From positions 1 through 45,100 of the forward strand of contig JAFSBX010000069.1 in NCBI GenBank assembly GCA_017437065.1: a stretch of DNA of 45,100 nt, written 5' to 3'. Source of the stretch: Lachnospiraceae bacterium (lineage in GTDB: Bacteria > Bacillota > Clostridia > Lachnospirales > Lachnospiraceae). Under the pieces are notes generated by a model. That model had not been told where the DNA came from, searched no databases, and worked only from the letters and a program-made list of their open reading frames with translations. Shown in pieces: positions 33,721 to 41,158 of the stretch. How positions within the stretch are numbered: position 1 is the stretch's first letter; each line of letters begins with the position of its first letter. The translations under genes were made by a program, and so were the position numbers.

Positions 33721-34695
33721 TCATTTAAAAAATATACATTTTATCAGTTCTAGCAAACCGCTACCGCAAGCCCCCAATATAATAACCACTAACACATATG
33801 TAATAATAACCTTCAAATTTGTTGAAGCAGTAGATATTCTTATTAGCTTACTAAAATTAAGGATTCCCTTTTCATCCTTACTCTTTTCTTTCCAGTGATA
33901 TGCCAAAACGTCAGTTACATCATAATTTTTTTCTAAGTAAGCATCCCAATCATGTTCTTCTAATTTTCGACATTCATAGATACCCGTTCCAAAGGAATCC
34001 ACGTCATCGCTGCTATTGCTCATTACCAACAAATGTATCTTTTTAAACACCGCAAATTTATATTTGTTTAGCCTGTAATCTTTACATATATTGTGAGGCA
34101 AATTTCTTTCCTGATTAATCTTTATGTCAACAATTTGTGTTTCCACAAATCCGCTCTCAAGAAACCAATTCTTCTTACGAACCGGACAAAATAACGATTT
34201 TTTAATGCTCCCACTATTTACTCGAAAACGAATATACAAATCATCATACTCAGAGAATTTTTCATCCTTTATCAATTCCTCAAAATCCATAGTAAAACTC
34301 GACAGTTCATTATCAATACTATGGCTTATAAACGATTCTAATTCCCCATCTTTCTTCACATTTACAAGCAACTTCGGTTTATCAAAATTATCTGATTCTA
34401 TTATTGTATATCTGTCCTTCGAAGATATCTCACATTCAACCTCATTAAAAATTAGTCTTGCTATATCTGGTGTTTTTACCAATTCATATAAATCAATAAT
34501 TTCACTATCATTAATTCTAAACGGCAATAAGATATCCAATGACTTTATTTTTCTAAAATCTGAGATACTGATTCCAAAGTCAACAAATGGGCTTGTACTT
34601 TTATTATTACCTTTTAAATTCCATAAATTAATATGAAATTCCAGTTGTGGCATCTCCTCTCCATACAATTCATACCAAATTCCTATACTTTTCAC
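33721..34695 (-). CDS. Tail-anchored protein of unknown function, defence-island cluster
   Basis: 324 aa. Residues 1-290 are soluble, beta-rich and unrecognised (EFHINLWNLKGNN, PFVDFGISISDFRKIKSLDI, LPFRINDSEIIDLYEL). A single C-terminal TM helix (about 297-318, NLKVIITYVLVVIILGACGS) is followed by a few residues, giving a tail-anchored topology. Last gene of the minus-strand cluster with the kinase, the PIN-GNAT-EVE-like fusion and the ASCH-like gene, eight bases after the latter. A membrane-linked effector is one possibility, by analogy with defence systems, but nothing in the sequence proves it. Confidence 0.65.
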   Translation of the reverse strand: MKSIGIWYELYGEEMPQLEFHINLWNLKGNNKSTSPFVDFGISISDFRKIKSLDILLPFRINDSEIIDLYELVKTPDIARLIFNEVECEISSKDRYTIIESDNFDKPKLLVNVKKDGELESFISHSIDNELSSFTMDFEELIKDEKFSEYDDLYIRFRVNSGSIKKSLFCPVRKKNWFLESGFVETQIVDIKINQERNLPHNICKDYRLNKYKFAVFKKIHLLVMSNSSDDVDSFGTGIYECRKLEEHDWDAYLEKNYDVTDVLAYHWKEKSKDEKGILNFSKLIRISTASTNLKVIITYVLVVIILGACGSGLLELIKCIFFK

Positions 34696-34702
34696 TAAAA
34701 TC

Positions 34703-35107
34703 TCACCTACCTTTCCTCAGTAATTCATACTGTTCTTGCGTCAAATATGAAAACGATTGTGGTGCCTGTTGAACTCCTATGTCCAACAATTTTTTATTTG
34801 ACTCATATTTAGTTACCTTTCCCAAGGCATACGCACATGCTTTTTTTCTACCTTTGAAATATTCTCTATATTTTTTTCTACTTATTCCAGCCTCCTTCTT
34901 TGTCTTTTCCCACAAAGAACTAGGAGCCATCTCAATTGTCCCAACCACCTCTACCTCACCAACAATTTCCATCACAGGCCATGTTGAATAGATTATTAAA
35001 GAACTCACATCTTTTTTAGCTAACATTCTTCTATATTCATACTTTTTAGTACCATTTAAGATTCTGTTTACATATTCCGGTTTAATAGAAATTAAAACTT
35101 TACTCAT
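34703..35107 (-). CDS. ASCH/PUA-like domain protein
   Basis: 134 aa. N-terminus SKVLISIKPEYVNRILNGTKKYEYRRM is the typical opening of ASCH-type PUA-fold proteins (COG4933-like), with the strand EIVGEVEVVGTIEMAP. ASCH/PUA domains bind RNA or modified nucleic-acid bases. I choose ATG 35107, with AGGTG upstream, over the GTG at 35116. It overlaps the end of the PIN-GNAT-EVE-like gene by eight bases, so the two are translationally coupled. Confidence 0.75.
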   Translation of the reverse strand: MSKVLISIKPEYVNRILNGTKKYEYRRMLAKKDVSSLIIYSTWPVMEIVGEVEVVGTIEMAPSSLWEKTKKEAGISRKKYREYFKGRKKACAYALGKVTKYESNKKLLDIGVQQAPQSFSYLTQEQYELLRKGR

Positions 35108-36632
35108 TCCTATCACCTACTTTATATAATTTTGTATTAGAATCTTTTATAATATTATTGTACTGTACATCATCTATTCTAACAAAAGGCCTCGGACCAT
35201 TCGGAAACGGAATAATATTATTATTCCATAAATATTGTAGATTAAGTCTGCTCTCTAAACTCTTTACATAAATGAATTTAACCACGCAAATATTATATCT
35301 ATGCTTTTCCCAAAAATCATTCAGTTCTTCCTTAGAAAAAACACTTCGATTTTCACAATAGTCCATAAATTGTTTTTTAGTCGCAAAATTTGAAACAAAC
35401 TCATCAATCACAGCAACTGTTGTCAAAACTGATGTATATCCTTTCCGACCTTCTTCCCCAGTTCGATAAAACAAGACAATATCTCCTACCCTAACATCTG
35501 ATTTCATCCCCCAAGTCACATATACTTTCTGTAACGCATATCGATGCGCAATGTTTCCAATAAAATCAACTTCATTTTCAGTCTTTAATTGTGAATCTGG
35601 AAGTAAGTTAGTATGATATTGTGGATAAATAGGCAAAATTCGTTTGGCCACATTATAGTTTATATTAGGGAAATTCTGCTTTATGGACAAACTTGGATTA
35701 TATGTTTTCATACTCTTAACCAAGACTTTCTCCTTCTTCCCATTTGATTCTTTTACTCCATAATCATTAAATCCCCAACGTTTTAACAAAGCTTCCAACG
35801 CTATTAATTCAGGACGATTCTCAAATAAAGTAACATATATTTCATCTACATTTCTTTCTATCGCATTATCAAAAATAATTTTTATAAACCTTTCTCCTAA
35901 TCTAAAACCTGTCGAATCAATTTTAAATGTTCCAATCTTTAATCGACGCTTAGGCGGAAAAATAGGTGAAATATCATGATAATCCGAATCTACATCTTCT
36001 GTTTTCAAATACAAAAAACCTAAAATCATATCACTATCCGAATAACAGATATAAGCTTCTTCATTACTTTTTTTCGCAAACCAAGTATCAAAGCCTTGAT
36101 AACTATCTCGTAGACTATCAAAAAAAACATTCGAAACATCTACATTACCAATATATTGTTTTTTTACTGACAAATGTTTATAGTTAATTAGTTCTGGATT
36201 TTCAGACGTTGCTTTTTCAATAAACGCATTTATAGAAAATACTCGCTCCGAAATACCTAATGCAATTGCCTTATTTCTCATACGACGATCTTCGGTAATT
36301 AGTATATCTACTCTTCCACAATACACTTCACATAATAATTGATTATCAATTTCATCATTTTCACTTATGGGTATTTGCTTTAATGAATTAATAAACACTT
36401 CACTTTGCGGTGCAACAGTTTTCATTTCAATATAAGAAGATAACTTGACATCATAAAGCTTTTGCATCTGTGCGTCTCCATATTTACGCAATTCTTTCAC
36501 AGAATATGGGTGAATCATTTTTTCATAATGCAGTTTATCCAACCAATAATAAAGCAAGCCAATACTCTGATTCGTTACCTTTGTATTCTCTCTATGTATG
36601 ATTATATTAGTGTCCAATAAAGTTTTCACCAT
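35100..36632 (-). CDS. PIN-GNAT-EVE-like three-domain fusion protein
   Basis: 510 aa, cytoplasmic. Residues 1-150: PIN nuclease-like domain (LLDTNIIIHRE with D7, a central acidic NDEIDNQLLCEVY, and ILITEDRRMRNKA). About 160-335: GNAT-like acyltransferase fold (EAYICYSDSDMILGFLYLKT, FRLGERFIKIIFDNAIERNV, LEALLKRWGFNDYGVKE). About 345-495: EVE/PUA-like base-binding fold (YVTWGMKSDVRVGDIVLFYR, SVLTTVAVIDEFV, IPFPNGPRPFVRIDD). PIN domains cleave RNA, so this looks like a regulated RNase effector. Its start overlaps the kinase gene by 26 bases. I know of no characterised protein with exactly this order. Confidence 0.75.
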   Translation of the reverse strand: MVKTLLDTNIIIHRENTKVTNQSIGLLYYWLDKLHYEKMIHPYSVKELRKYGDAQMQKLYDVKLSSYIEMKTVAPQSEVFINSLKQIPISENDEIDNQLLCEVYCGRVDILITEDRRMRNKAIALGISERVFSINAFIEKATSENPELINYKHLSVKKQYIGNVDVSNVFFDSLRDSYQGFDTWFAKKSNEEAYICYSDSDMILGFLYLKTEDVDSDYHDISPIFPPKRRLKIGTFKIDSTGFRLGERFIKIIFDNAIERNVDEIYVTLFENRPELIALEALLKRWGFNDYGVKESNGKKEKVLVKSMKTYNPSLSIKQNFPNINYNVAKRILPIYPQYHTNLLPDSQLKTENEVDFIGNIAHRYALQKVYVTWGMKSDVRVGDIVLFYRTGEEGRKGYTSVLTTVAVIDEFVSNFATKKQFMDYCENRSVFSKEELNDFWEKHRYNICVVKFIYVKSLESRLNLQYLWNNNIIPFPNGPRPFVRIDDVQYNNIIKDSNTKLYKVGDRNE

Positions 36633-37164
36633 AAACCTCCTTTAGGAACAAATAATTCTCTTCTATATCTTCATTTGAAAATTTCATATTATGAACAAAT
36701 AATGGAATATTTAATTTTTCCGCAATATGCTCTGCACAGTTTCTTTCAGTGTTCAAAAATTCCTCTATTTGTTGTATTGAATATTTCTTACCATCACGTC
36801 TATTCAAATTCCGCATAATAATTTCAGGACCTGCTTCTAATAATATAATTGCAGAAAGTTGTAACTTACTATATGTATGCTCTGGAAGCTGTTCCACCTG
36901 TCCGTTATTACCCAAAATGCAAAAATGTCCTGCTAATAAAATTATTTTCTCATGTTCTAACTTTTCAGACATTTTTTTAATTAAAATATCCTGATTTAAT
37001 TCTTTATTTTTTACAATTTTATTCGAACCGTACTTTTCGCCATTTTCCTCACTTATAACATCACCCGCAGAATAAAAATTGATATGACATTTTTGTGCTA
37101 ATTTATTGCACAAGGTACTTTTTCCAACACCATATACCCCCGAAACAAATACTACACTATTCAC
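36607..37164 (-). CDS. P-loop kinase (adenylate-kinase-like) of the defence cluster
   Basis: 185 aa. Walker A GVYGVGKST at 9-17, then FYSAGDVISEENGEKYGSNK, a Walker B-like strand IILLAGHFCILGN and an Arg-rich lid NLNRRDGKKYSIQQIEEFLN. Resembles small AAA_33/adenylate-kinase-type NTPases found in defence cassettes; could phosphorylate a nucleotide, RNA end or protein. GTG start at 37164 with AAAGGA nine bases upstream. It starts two codons after the TAG that ends the PIN-domain reading frame and is in the same frame as it. Confidence 0.7.
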   Translation of the reverse strand: MNSVVFVSGVYGVGKSTLCNKLAQKCHINFYSAGDVISEENGEKYGSNKIVKNKELNQDILIKKMSEKLEHEKIILLAGHFCILGNNGQVEQLPEHTYSKLQLSAIILLEAGPEIIMRNLNRRDGKKYSIQQIEEFLNTERNCAEHIAEKLNIPLFVHNMKFSNEDIEENYLFLKEVYGENFIGH

Positions 37165-37167
37165 TTT

Positions 37168-37947
37168 CTAAAATCCTTTCTTTATAATATTGTCTCTTCT
37201 AATCATAACCTTCCAACTATTATTCACATATCCCTTATTATCATTTTTTATCTCGTTTTTTTCATTACTTTCTTGATAAAATATGCTCGTTATTCCTTCT
37301 GAATATGCTGAAACATTTAAATACTCACAACATTTCTTTAATACTTTATTTAATTCTTTATCCTTTGAGATAATTTTTTCTTTCTTTTCAACAGCAGTTG
37401 CTACTATAAGTAAGTCCATAAACGAATTTCTATAATTGTCTTTTACATTATAATCATGTTTAATATCTTCATATATATCATGCATTCTATTGATAATTTC
37501 TTGGGTTATCGGTACTACTACAATATTATTATCAACTAAGAATTGGGCTCGTTCCCGAAATTTCTTATACTATTCTTTATCTAATGAAAGTTGTGCAAAG
37601 AGTAACAATGTATCCAAATCTTTCTCATTTATTAAATGGCTTATAGCTTCGTTTGAATATATAACACTACTATTAAACTCACCGTTGAAATCTATAACAA
37701 GTTTATCGGTACAATTTTTTCCAAGTTCAAATCCTCTTTTTTTATGTTCCAAATTAACCATAATCCCCAGATGAATTCCCTTTATTTTAACTGGATACAT
37801 TTTTGCCCGATTTTGTCCTTTTATCATAATTCCCAAGAATTCCAATGCTACTATAGATGATATCCATCTTCCATTTATATCACCGGCAAACAAGTCCTTA
37901 TTCCCCTTATATTTGTAAGAAATAATCTGTGTATCAAGAAATTCCAT
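37168..37947 (-). pseudogene. PIN-domain gene interrupted by one in-frame TAG
   Basis: One continuous frame of 260 codons broken only by TAG at 37570-37572. Before it: EFLDTQIISYKYKG (first acidic residue), WISSIVALEFLGI, and LLLFAQLSLDKE at the stop. After it: YKKFRERAQFLVDNNIVVVP, then SFMDLLIVATAVEKKEKIIS and KDKELNKVL, the classic C-terminal half of a PIN domain. The halves together make one PIN-type ribonuclease of about 259 aa. GAGG stands nine bases before ATG 37947. The frame ends in another TAG. Either an inactivated toxin-like nuclease or a rare readthrough gene. Confidence 0.75.
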
Positions 37948-38258: not shown

Positions 38259-39122
38259 TTATACAAACAAATCACTCATAATATTTTGTTCCATATCATC
38301 AATACTGTAAATCGTATCCATGGCCTCGAATGTCTCTCTCAAATTCCCCCTTGCACTCTTCCAGCCGATTCCGTCTGTAAACCACACAAAAGTAAATCCA
38401 TCTATGGTATCTGCCTCCTGCGAAAGCATTTTATAGCTTCTTGCAGTTTCATTGAGTTTTGAGCCTCCACCACCATAGAAATTAGTTTCGATACCATAAA
38501 TCATCTTATCTGTCTTGATTACAAAATCAAATCGCTTAGCAGCCTTGCCCTGATTAGAAAGTGCTGATAAATCAATGCTCCACTTTTCTTCAATGTCCTT
38601 AAGATACATTTCCTTAAAGTAGCTGACATCCTTCTCAAACCCTGCTGCCACGATGTACTTCTCAACCAAATCTTCCATCTGGTGACCGCCACGATTTTTA
38701 CGACCATTAGAATCCAATCCTGTTTCGATACCCAAAGCATAATCTACAAGATTATTTACCAAGTGATTCGCAATCATCTCAAATAATCCGGTCTTACGCA
38801 TAAACACCTTGTACTGCTCTACACTGTAATTCATCTTTTTAAAGTTATACAAGAATGCACCTTCTTCATCCTGTGCGTAAATTTCATATCCTCTTACTGC
38901 TAGAAGTAATGGAATACATTGCAGTGTCTCCGGATACATTTTCACTATTCTCTCAAAGTCTTCCTCGATATTTTTCGAACCAATCAAAGAATTAAGAATA
39001 TTCAATTCCACCTTGATTTCTTCTACATTTCTTACGACTTTTTCAAAGTCGATATAGTAATCATAACTTGATATACTCGGTCTGAATTTACTTAGCCATT
39101 CATCAAAATCTCTATTTGCCAT
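38259..39122 (-). CDS. dpnB: DpnII-type restriction endonuclease (GATC)
   Basis: 287 aa, the usual length of DpnII/MboI-family type II enzymes. Family landmarks: FDEWLSKFRPSISSYDYYID, IPLLLAVRGYEIYAQDEEGA, NRGGHQMEDLVEKYI, and the nuclease core RFDFVIKTDKMIYGIETNFY with the acidic and Glu residues, followed by GGGGSKLNETARSYK. Cuts unmethylated GATC by family knowledge. Its ATG overlaps the end of the DpnA-like methylase gene by 11 bases. Arrangement methylase-methylase-endonuclease is that of pneumococcal dpnM-dpnA-dpnB. Confidence 0.9.
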   Translation of the reverse strand: MANRDFDEWLSKFRPSISSYDYYIDFEKVVRNVEEIKVELNILNSLIGSKNIEEDFERIVKMYPETLQCIPLLLAVRGYEIYAQDEEGAFLYNFKKMNYSVEQYKVFMRKTGLFEMIANHLVNNLVDYALGIETGLDSNGRKNRGGHQMEDLVEKYIVAAGFEKDVSYFKEMYLKDIEEKWSIDLSALSNQGKAAKRFDFVIKTDKMIYGIETNFYGGGGSKLNETARSYKMLSQEADTIDGFTFVWFTDGIGWKSARGNLRETFEAMDTIYSIDDMEQNIMSDLFV

Positions 39123-39915
39123 TTGCTACCTTCTCCAATCTTTTCTTGGATATCTCCAAGTATTCTTCACTTACATCTATTCCAATAAACTTCCGCCCAA
39201 ATCGCACAGCCTCTACTCCGGTAGTTCCGGAACCACAGAAAGGATCCAATATAACCTGTCCTTCCTCTGTAGATGCCAATACCATTTTCTCAAGCAGATA
39301 TTCCGGCTTCTGTGTAGGATGTTTACCTTCTGTTTTCTCTGAAGGCTTAGTTAACGCACCAGTCCAAACATCCTTCATCTGCTTGCCTTCATTCATTTCT
39401 TTCATTTTTTGATAATTAAAAAAATGCCGAGACTTCTTTTCATTCTTCTTTGCCCATAAAATGGTTTCAGTAGAATGTGTGAAGCATCGACATGCTAAGT
39501 TTGGTGGTGGATTTGTTTTCTGCCATGTTATGTTGTTGATTATCTTGAAGCCTTCCTGCTCCAATGCCATACCAATCGAATATATATTGTGTAATGTCCC
39601 CGATATCCAAATCGTGCCGTTAGGCTTTAGTACTTTCTTACATAACTTAATCCACTTTCTGTTAAACTTGTGTTTCTCTTCGACACTGGTTCCACTTTCC
39701 GAAAGCTTATCCCATGAGCCTTTATTTACCGAAACCATTTTTCCACCCTGACAGGTGATACCGTCATTACTTAAAAAGTATGGTGGGTCTGCAAATATCA
39801 TATCCACAGATTCCGGTTCCATTTTGGTTAGAATTTTAAAGGAATCACCTAGTATCAATTGTGATTCTTCTGTCTCGAAGTATAATGGCACTTTTTTTGC
39901 AAATAAGTTTTCCAT
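39112..39915 (-). CDS. dpnA: Beta-class adenine methyltransferase, DpnA-like
   Basis: 267 aa. Motif IV DPPY at 43-46 (MIFADPPYFLSNDGITCQGG) comes before motif I (LDPFCGSGTTGVEAVRFGRK, about 225-245), the order of beta-class N6/N4 methylases. Also HPTQKPEYLLEKMVLAS. This is the second methylase of DpnII systems (M.DpnIIB type, able to act on single-stranded DNA). Coupled by overlap to the endonuclease gene and 28 bases after the 121-aa unknown. Confidence 0.88.
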   Translation of the reverse strand: MENLFAKKVPLYFETEESQLILGDSFKILTKMEPESVDMIFADPPYFLSNDGITCQGGKMVSVNKGSWDKLSESGTSVEEKHKFNRKWIKLCKKVLKPNGTIWISGTLHNIYSIGMALEQEGFKIINNITWQKTNPPPNLACRCFTHSTETILWAKKNEKKSRHFFNYQKMKEMNEGKQMKDVWTGALTKPSEKTEGKHPTQKPEYLLEKMVLASTEEGQVILDPFCGSGTTGVEAVRFGRKFIGIDVSEEYLEISKKRLEKVANGK

Positions 39916-39943
39916 TATCCCGACTCCTTAATAAAATATCGTT

Positions 39944-40309
39944 TTATTTTGTAAATAGAATTTCAACATCACCATCTACAAATCCAATGCCGATACCTTC
40001 TTTACTCTTTAATATATGGGCATACTTCCCATCTTCAAGATACTGTCTCAAAATTGTAGACATCTCTTCAAGTACAACATCCCACTCTGAGTCTTTATCC
40101 CATGCTAAAAGACCTTCTCTAGTTCCAAAATCCGTCACTTCGTCACAAGGCCAATCCTCATCATCTGCATCAAAGCGTTCGGTTCCTACCAATTCCATTG
40201 ACCAAGCATTATCTCCATCTTCATATAAATTGAAACAAAATGCTACAACTTCTTCGGGAACATCTTTGCTTAGAACATTATTTAACCAATCTGCCACTTC
40301 ATTATACAT
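39944..40309 (-). CDS. Unknown acidic protein inside the DpnII operon
   Basis: 121 aa, very acidic, no TM. YNEVADWLNNVLSKDVPEEV, FCFNLYEDGDNAWSMELVG, FDADDEDWPCDEVTDFGTRE, WDVVLEEMSTILRQYLEDGK. I do not know the family by name; similar small acidic proteins occur near toxin or immunity genes. The strong negative charge could mean DNA mimicry or an inhibitor role, but that is inference. It lies 15 bases after the Dam-like gene and before the DpnA-like gene, so it is expressed with the methylases. Confidence 0.65.
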   Translation of the reverse strand: MYNEVADWLNNVLSKDVPEEVVAFCFNLYEDGDNAWSMELVGTERFDADDEDWPCDEVTDFGTREGLLAWDKDSEWDVVLEEMSTILRQYLEDGKYAHILKSKEGIGIGFVDGDVEILFTK

Positions 40310-40324
40310 GGTCTATTTTCTCCT

Positions 40325-41158
40325 CTAATAATTACATATAATCACTTCTTCGCCAACTCTGTTGGATGCATCTGAATTAATCATACGTTTAACGCTTACA
40401 ACATCTATTCTGTATCCCTTGTTACCATACAACTCATTTATCAAATCTGTATTATGATTTGTGAGCATACAATAACATCTTCTGGTAGTTAATTCATCAA
40501 ATAGCTTCGCAAGTCGTTTGTGACTTTCAATATCAAATCCTTCTTTAGTATATGATTCAAAAGAAGTTGGATTCAACGGTGCATACGGACTGTCAATAAA
40601 TACAAAATCACCCTTCTTGGCATCCTTACAAGCAGCTTCAAAATCTCCGTCAATAATTTTTACCCCCTGAAGATATTCTGAAATCTCCATAATAGCATTT
40701 TCATCAACGGAAGCTCTACGACTATTGTTGTATGGAACATTGAAAAGTCCCTTGCCATTTACACGATACAAGCCATTAAAACAATGCTTATTAATAAATA
40801 CAAACAATGCAGCTAACTCCACATCGAACTCTGCTTTCATCAGCTTATCATTGTAGTGCTCCCTGAGAGAATAATAATATTCCTTACCATCCTCCCACAT
40901 TTCCTCATCTAGCTGCTTTACAGCCTTTAGAAATGCTTCCGGCACATTACATATCTGCTTATAAGCATTTATCAACGCTTTGTTGATATCGTTTATCAGA
41001 GCATTTGCAGGTAGCAATTCGAATATCACCGCTCCACCACCTACAAATGGCTCAAAATAATTATTATATTTTTCAGGCATTCTCTCCTTTATCTGTGGAA
41101 GCAACTGACGCTTTCCGCCAGCCCATTTCACAAATGGAGCGACACTTGAATTACTCAT
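40325..41158 (-). CDS. dpnM: Dam-type adenine methyltransferase, DpnM-like
   Basis: 277 aa alpha-class N6-adenine methylase. N-terminal PFVKWAGGKRQLLPQI and FEPFVGGGAVIFELLPANAL (SAM-binding motifs X and I), target region in the middle, and motif IV FVFIDSPYAPL, where DSPY replaces the usual DPPY. Methylates GATC by family knowledge, protecting against the DpnII enzyme. AGAGGAA precedes ATG 41158. Own promoter at 41208-41236 with a controller palindrome just upstream. Confidence 0.9.
   Translation of the reverse strand: MSNSSVAPFVKWAGGKRQLLPQIKERMPEKYNNYFEPFVGGGAVIFELLPANALINDINKALINAYKQICNVPEAFLKAVKQLDEEMWEDGKEYYYSLREHYNDKLMKAEFDVELAALFVFINKHCFNGLYRVNGKGLFNVPYNNSRRASVDENAIMEISEYLQGVKIIDGDFEAACKDAKKGDFVFIDSPYAPLNPTSFESYTKEGFDIESHKRLAKLFDELTTRRCYCMLTNHNTDLINELYGNKGYRIDVVSVKRMINSDASNRVGEEVIICNY

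Follow-up and report, generated by a model that had tools for sequence, protein, structure and literature searches.

A four-gene unit in a Lachnospiraceae contig

The window analysed here, the whole stretch of 45,100 nucleotides from contig JAFSBX010000069.1 of a Lachnospiraceae bacterium (assembly GCA_017437065.1), carries four consecutive minus-strand open reading frames (ORFs) at positions 33721-37164, which make up one operon-like unit. They encode a small kinase, a protein in which PIN, GNAT-like and EVE domains are predicted to be combined in one chain, an ASCH protein and a tail-anchored protein. For the family of the last we coin the name TAP, which stands for a soluble part followed by a C-terminal transmembrane helix. 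The first three genes belong to a kind of operon that is already described, and the link of TAP to it is new: TAP keeps company with operons of this kind in several bacterial phyla. The features of the unit are as follows.

36607..37164, minus strand: small P-loop (adenylate-kinase-like, AAA_17) kinase, 185 amino acids, first gene of the unit; Pfam AAA_17, E 3e-22
35100..36632, minus strand: PIN-GNAT-EVE protein, 510 amino acids, candidate toxin/effector; PADLOC PDC-M11A, E 2e-192, and family alignments
36249..36617, minus strand: PIN RNase-type domain, residues 6-128 of the PIN-GNAT-EVE protein, with acidic D7, E47, D93, D96, E114 and D115 present
35736..36164, minus strand: GNAT-like domain, residues 157-299, whose acetyl-CoA loop is unusual; phrog_13728 acetyltransferase, E 2e-26
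35145..35678, minus strand: EVE/PUA-like domain, residues 319-496; limits from phrog_30943, a PHROG of unknown function, E 7e-25
34703..35107, minus strand: ASCH protein, 134 amino acids, candidate antitoxin/regulator; Pfam ASCH, E 2e-5, and PADLOC PDC-M11B, E 2e-45
33721..34695, minus strand: TAP, tail-anchored protein, 324 amino acids, newly linked component; family alignment and co-occurrence
33754..33810, minus strand: predicted C-terminal transmembrane helix of TAP, residues 296-314; mean hydropathy 2.45 over 19 residues

A compact cluster of four minus-strand genes had been proposed in an earlier, sequence-only reading, and the ORFs were indeed present where it had placed them. Its domain assignments (P-loop kinase, PIN, GNAT, EVE/PUA-like and ASCH) were borne out by Pfam, PHROG and PADLOC matches, partly obtained through relatives. 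With ATG starts the kinase and PIN-GNAT-EVE genes overlap by 26 bases and the PIN-GNAT-EVE and ASCH genes by 8, as had been read, and the last gap, between the ASCH and TAP genes, is 7 bases rather than 8. If the alternative GTG at 36629 is used, the PIN-GNAT-EVE protein has 509 residues and the first overlap is 23 bases; this GTG is better spaced from an AGGAGG sequence than the ATG and agrees with the start position in relatives. An upstream GTG would likewise move the start of the ASCH gene to 35116. Plausible ribosome-binding sequences precede the second (PIN-GNAT-EVE) and the fourth (TAP) genes. The host assignment is uncertain because the source assembly consists of 156 contigs with an estimated contamination of 5.58%.

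Linkage of TAP to GNAT/ASCH modules

Proteins were assigned to TAP by a profile match over about 300 residues together with a C-terminal hydrophobic helix, and the window protein shows both. Its single predicted hydrophobic helix agrees with the membrane anchor that had been suggested at this end, and a comparable helix lies near the C-terminus in 21/21 listed TAP rows. Full-length relatives have 311-455 amino acids and are 18-31% identical to the window TAP in the alignments; one further relative, cut by a contig end, is 81% identical. When 16 members were compared with each of Pfam, NCBIfam and PHROGs, no family matched more than one of them (best E 0.0045); seven members gave no match below E 0.01 to the PADLOC models, and no relatives were detected among PDB sequences (best E 0.89). 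A SLATT-type model matched the membrane end of one TAP with E 0.033, which was too weak to be used as evidence.

Three TAP queries found 7 distinct records among 72,556 plasmid records, and the window TAP alone found 5. Matches to (PIN)-GNAT-EVE proteins, that is, to forms with or without the PIN part, were present in 33 of the 72,556 records, including 7/7 of those with TAP (5/5 for the window query), and the gaps between the two genes were 0.46-1.84 kb. In the converse direction TAP was found in 7/33 of the (PIN)-GNAT-EVE plasmid records. The hypergeometric P for the 7/7 co-occurrence is 2e-24, a figure that ignores the clustering of defence genes; it overstates the linkage, though hardly enough to undo it.

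Genome searches that started from TAP covered 299, 391, 398, 296 and 299 genomes and found nine genomes. The resulting tally over all collections comprises 18 places, namely the seven plasmid records, these nine genomes and two viral places; the window's genome, G1062, G1063 and the contig that supplied the viral query are not counted. GNAT/ASCH partners were seen at 12/18 places and none at 4/18, and 2/18 could not be judged. Two of the genomes (G568 and G1394) combine TAP with a stand-alone GNAT, ASCH and GNAT-EVE, and in G274 TAP occurs with a stand-alone GNAT and ASCH and no EVE fusion was found. The TAP of G196 lies at a contig end, and G022 contains an interrupted TAP fragment without recognised partners. 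In a single-protein scan of viral contigs a prophage TAP query gave three loci, one of them its own contig. Of the two other places, one (L148) carries a stand-alone GNAT, ASCH, GNAT-EVE and kinase, and was also recovered by the GNAT-EVE scan, and the second carries a stand-alone GNAT and ASCH at a contig end. The window TAP had no match among viral contigs in this type of scan, and none was found in the phage records searched with TAP.

TAP genes occur in two main arrangements. In one they are in line with a PIN-GNAT-EVE or GNAT-EVE operon (the window, L016, L018, L051, L070, L087). TAP is the last gene of the window unit and of those in Paracoccus and Rhizobium NXC24; L087 has it in first place, in L051 it separates the kinase gene from the toxin gene, and in L070 the toxin gene from the ASCH gene. 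In the other, TAP adjoins a stand-alone GNAT with a normal acetyl-CoA loop, both glycines being present in 10/10; four of these GNATs were compared with PDC-M11A and gave weak matches to its GNAT part (E 3e-7 to 4e-4). GNAT-EVE and ASCH genes, mostly with a kinase gene, are found near this pair in 8/10 cases, the exceptions being G274 and the cut contig L197. Elsewhere TAP and the GNAT-EVE gene are on different strands and converge (L017, L107, L148, L154, L202, L204). The sequence-only reading had named the joint occurrence of the four homologues elsewhere as a test of its proposal, and the kinase, PIN-GNAT-EVE, ASCH and TAP genes do stand together in Paracoccus (L016) and in an alphaproteobacterial metagenome-assembled genome (L051). 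The corresponding set with a PIN-less GNAT-EVE was seen in Nitrosophilus (L015), M. bullatum (L017), Pseudomonas (L202) and Paenibacillus (L203).

A tree was made of 53 GNAT-EVE sequences, among which the 17 that have TAP were over-sampled on purpose; on it the TAP label requires 11 gains or losses (10-11 in bootstrap trees), at least eight of which are forced by starred branches. Shuffled labels required 14.4 changes on average, and 17/500 shuffles were as low as the observed value. The pattern may have arisen by repeated uptake of TAP or by frequent loss of an old partner; either course agrees with a link that works and yet can be dispensed with.

Some TAP loci have features of their own. 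L021 (L021:3866-5992, identical to L007), which also belongs to the in-line arrangement, retains no more of TAP than its C-terminal half, helix included; this half lies ahead of the toxin gene and in frame just behind a 565-residue ORF that had no match in PADLOC or PHROGs. A Rhizobium anhuiense plasmid (L019:4282-10084) has a single TAP between two different (PIN)-GNAT-EVE/ASCH modules. Four Clostridia TAPs without such partners (L108, L109, L110, L111) form one clade with support 100/99. The L108 gene is near those of a histidine kinase, a response regulator and a SpoIIE-type protein, and L109 is near genes for GGDEF and RelA/SpoT proteins; among the neighbours of L110 an amidohydrolase alone was identified, and for L111, whose two neighbours were compared with PADLOC alone, none. 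A signalling-operon setting is thus seen for L108 and L109 and may hold for the whole Clostridia clade.

The kinase, PIN-GNAT-EVE and ASCH proteins and their known relatives

Genome contigs were scanned with a ten-protein alignment, which gave 499 relatives; the best 80 were kept, and these favour PIN-bearing forms because they are the nearest of the 499 to the window protein. The same alignment found 93 relatives in viral contigs, of which 80 were kept, representing 65 distinct proteins. ASCH lies within 3 kb at 76/80 genome loci and 62/65 distinct viral loci, the kinase at 39/80 and 20/65, and TAP at 4/80 (L021, L051, L070, L087) and 3/65, and the PIN part is present in the main ORF at 78/80 and in 4/65. 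The adjacent same-strand order in the genomes is kinase-toxin-ASCH at 35 loci, toxin-ASCH at 40, kinase-toxin at 2 and neither at 3, and (PIN)-GNAT-EVE and ASCH genes are therefore adjacent, with or without the kinase, at 75/80. One of the three loci with neither arrangement (L034) has ASCH fused to PIN-GNAT-EVE. These counts show that the gene arrangement of the unit is more than chance and that the kinase is optional in relatives.

PDC-M11A matches the 510-residue protein over residues 3-501 (E 2e-192). In the window protein alone PIN stays under the Pfam cut-off (PIN_4, E 0.027) and EVE is weak (E 0.12). Among 49 relatives, with E values up to 0.1 counted, PIN_3 matched 30/49 (best 1e-4), PIN_4 16/49, PIN_12 12/49 (best 1e-5) and EVE 21/49 (best 2e-4). 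The GNAT part was assigned through the PHROG acetyltransferase family phrog_13728 (E 2e-26), and a PDB sequence search with the PIN-GNAT-EVE profile detected no relatives (best E 0.96). Of the PIN acids, D7, D93, D96 and D115 are kept in 82/82 distinct full-length relatives, E47 in 80/82 and E114 in 81/82, which is what would be expected of an active PIN domain. The canonical acetyl-CoA loop of GNAT proteins is Q/RxxGxG/A. The window protein departs from this pattern: residue 244, at the usual position of the first glycine, is R or K in 82/82 relatives, the second glycine is kept in 80/82, and E247 is invariant.

In L034:5320-7236 a single natural ORF of 638 amino acids joins PIN, GNAT, EVE and ASCH. 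In the archaeal prophage psiM100 (L009:2557-5849) the 2.8-kb inserted fragment IFa carries most of a PIN-GNAT-EVE gene, which extends 133 bases beyond the end of IFa and is directly followed by an ASCH gene; IFa also has an ORF that is weakly DrmA-like (E 3.5e-6).

The kinase retains the Walker loop residues G9, G14 and K15 together with H80 and R123 in 68/68 relatives. Adenylate kinases are its nearest PDB sequences (E 4e-6), and the PADLOC models gave weak matches only, to kinases of other systems (VakA, E 1e-7).

In the ASCH protein, encoded at 34703-35107 next to the PIN-GNAT-EVE gene, the Pfam ASCH match is above the cut-off (E 2e-5). The family profile also matches Zymomonas mobilis ZmASCH (PDB 5GUS/5GUQ) with E 1.5e-25, a protein that binds nucleic acids and cuts single-stranded RNA; its residues Tyr47, Lys53 and Ser128 were compared, and the Tyr and the Ser are among those that matter for RNA binding (PMC5615036). 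Tyr47 and Gln127-Ser128 align with invariant residues of the family studied here, the Tyr and Ser equivalents being present in 22/22 proteins, whereas Lys53 has no conserved counterpart: the window protein has Met at this position and relatives have various residues. We also considered an ASCH amidohydrolase that would remove an acetyl group added by the GNAT part. In the N4-acetylcytidine (ac4C) amidohydrolase YqfB the catalytic nucleophile is Thr24, within a K-x-x-T-x-R stretch (PMC6972931). At this position, as read from motif spacing without a YqfB alignment, Glu stands in 22/22 ASCH proteins, and the idea was marked down for this replacement. One ASCH protein (L020:3162-4259) has a C-terminal extension which, judged by eye only, resembles an HNH-type zinc-binding region.

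Operons of (PIN)-GNAT-EVE genes, almost all with an ASCH protein and often with an AAA_17 ATPase, were described by Bell, Wolf and Koonin in 2020, who credit them to Iyer et al. 2013; a toxin-antitoxin or defence function was predicted, and none of the modules had then been characterised (PMC7641849). The window unit resembles these operons in domain order, in its partners (an adjacent ASCH gene and an AAA_17 gene) and in its defence-island setting; it differs in that the passages of Bell et al. drawn on here mention neither a membrane protein nor a second stand-alone GNAT. The same source reports that PIN-GNAT-EVE genes are consistently near other defence systems, including type I restriction-modification (RM), as against the type II (DpnII) neighbour in the window, and that an ASCH domain is fused to HsdS (PMC7641849). 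PADLOC lists a related phage defence candidate (PDC; PMC11514479), PDC-M11, whose models A (E 2e-192) and B (E 2e-45) are matched side by side by the window genes, whereas TAP (seven members) is outside these models and the window kinase gives only the weak matches mentioned above. Thus the defence or toxin system suggested by the sequence-only reading holds in kind, and, for the first three genes, its description as undescribed does not.

A further likeness is provided by the prophage-type Escherichia phage PhiR47_2 (PV340567), deposited with a 'GevT toxin' and an overlapping 'GevA antitoxin' beside cI. Here, too, a GNAT-EVE protein is encoded with an overlapping ASCH gene, and GevA matches PDC-M11B with E 7e-52. 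GevT has no PIN part, however, its 39% identity is to the GNAT-EVE part only, and there is neither a kinase nor TAP in the 11 kb around the pair. A literature search on GevT, GevA, GevAT and PDC-M11 gave nothing relevant.

Interpretation and alternatives

We favour, with a probability of about 0.5, the view that the unit is one of the known (PIN)-GNAT-EVE/ASCH modules, toxin-antitoxin-like and housed in a defence island, which here carries an extra, membrane-tethered subunit. Gene order, domains, the kept PIN acids, the RNA-pocket residues that ASCH has kept in part and the repeated association of TAP with GNAT/ASCH genes are observed, and from them we infer toxicity, its neutralisation, its target and every role given to TAP. 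The PIN-GNAT-EVE protein would be the toxic effector, its EVE part selecting a nucleic-acid target, most likely RNA and perhaps tRNA, which the GNAT part may modify and/or the PIN part cut. The ASCH protein, encoded by the adjacent gene and in one case fused to PIN-GNAT-EVE, would restrain the toxin, and the kinase may be an optional accessory that phosphorylates a nucleotide or RNA. TAP, as an optional sensor or scaffold, might tether the GNAT toxin or sense at the membrane, and release or localise the toxin on infection. In favour of this module are the PDC-M11A/B matches, the GevT/GevA annotation and the prediction of Bell et al. 2020 (PMC7641849); the PIN acids (80-82/82), the proximity of ASCH (76/80 and 62/65) and the L034 fusion; and the ZmASCH match, the 7/7 plasmid finds, the position of TAP inside the operon in L051 and L070 and the 11 changes on the tree.

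Several observations weigh against it. Of the three plasmid queries, one was the window TAP, and the other two had been known beforehand to lie beside GNAT-EVE genes. TAP is missing at 76/80 genome loci and in 26/33 plasmid records; it is not essential, since most (PIN)-GNAT-EVE loci are without it. In four Clostridia genomes (G347, G358, G401, G409) the 10-14 kb around TAP contained nothing that matched GNAT-EVE, a stand-alone GNAT or ASCH. The TAP label is only mildly clustered on the tree, where losses were counted the same as gains. The GNAT loop is without its usual first glycine in 82/82 relatives, and acetylation is therefore not assured. Promoter and terminator patterns of the unit were no more frequent than in shuffled sequence. 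The label 'toxin' rests on one deposited annotation (PV340567), and the literature searched held no experiments on any (PIN)-GNAT-EVE protein.

In the base-marking view that Bell et al. 2020 (PMC7641849) report from Iyer et al. 2013, the GNAT part would acetylate a base and EVE and ASCH would read modified bases, so that the unit helps or replaces restriction or marks self and non-self. Two base-reader folds, the island shared with DpnII RM genes and, in other genomes, the proximity of PIN-GNAT-EVE to type I RM and the ASCH-HsdS fusion (Bell et al. 2020, PMC7641849) suit such a function, which we nevertheless consider unlikely: the PIN acids, kept in 80-82/82, and the kinship of ASCH to a protein cutting single-stranded RNA point to RNA, the PIN-less pair was deposited as toxin and antitoxin (PV340567), and the GNAT loop is unusual. 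That ASCH is itself the effector, an RNase rather than an antitoxin, would accord with the ZmASCH profile match (E 1.5e-25) and the RNA-binding Tyr and Ser kept in 22/22, and appears improbable given that Lys53 is replaced by Met in the window and by varied residues in relatives and that the related GevA was deposited as an antitoxin in PV340567. A pure addiction module, maintaining an island or prophage without anti-phage function, would explain the PIN-less pair beside cI in the prophage-type phage PhiR47_2 and the PIN-bearing gene that overlaps IFa, the 2.8-kb insertion in prophage psiM100; the RM genes around the window copy, and the other defence systems consistently found near PIN-GNAT-EVE (Bell et al. 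2020, PMC7641849), make us give this explanation rather little credit.

For TAP the main alternative is a separate defence or signalling cassette merely co-travelling in the same islands. Its absence from most GNAT-EVE loci, its convergent orientation on the opposite strand in L017, L107, L148, L154, L202 and L204, and the four Clostridia TAPs without GNAT/ASCH matches, two of which (L108, L109) lie among signalling genes, would all be compatible with this. The four partnerless TAPs, however, are one tight clade (100/99), six loci (the window, L016, L018, L051, L070 and L087) have TAP in line with the operon, and the repeated gain or loss on the tree and the linkage of 7/7 plasmid finds also argue for a closer association, so that mere co-travel seems doubtful. 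Taking these points together, we tentatively propose, at somewhat less than even odds, that in TAP the GNAT toxins have a membrane-anchored subunit of their own, one that had not been named before. GNAT/ASCH modules, whether they contain PIN-GNAT-EVE, GNAT-EVE or a stand-alone GNAT next to TAP, would have gained or lost it repeatedly, and it would gate or deliver nucleic-acid toxicity at the membrane; a sister clade would work elsewhere, apparently as part of signalling operons. We prefer a regulatory or tethering role of TAP over that of a pore-forming killer because TAP relatives sit among signalling genes, which is a weak basis for the choice.

The (PIN)-GNAT-EVE/ASCH module is widespread, and a recurrent membrane partner and a second GNAT that accompanies it offer a concrete handle on the site and timing of the toxin. 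They define a four- or five-gene variant, and the PADLOC models used here would list such loci without the membrane part. The match of ASCH to a solved RNA-cutting ASCH protein likewise gives a testable view of the candidate antitoxin.

The unit is assigned to a defence island because a DpnII-type restriction enzyme gene (38259-39122) and two methyltransferase genes lie at 38259-41158 on the minus strand, identified by PADLOC REase_II and MTase_II matches. The statement that the four genes directly follow the DpnII genes was loose: an interrupted PIN-type gene (37168-37947, minus strand) with an in-frame TAG at 37570-37572 intervenes. Its second piece alone gives a Pfam PIN match, with E 4e-4, just below the cut-off.

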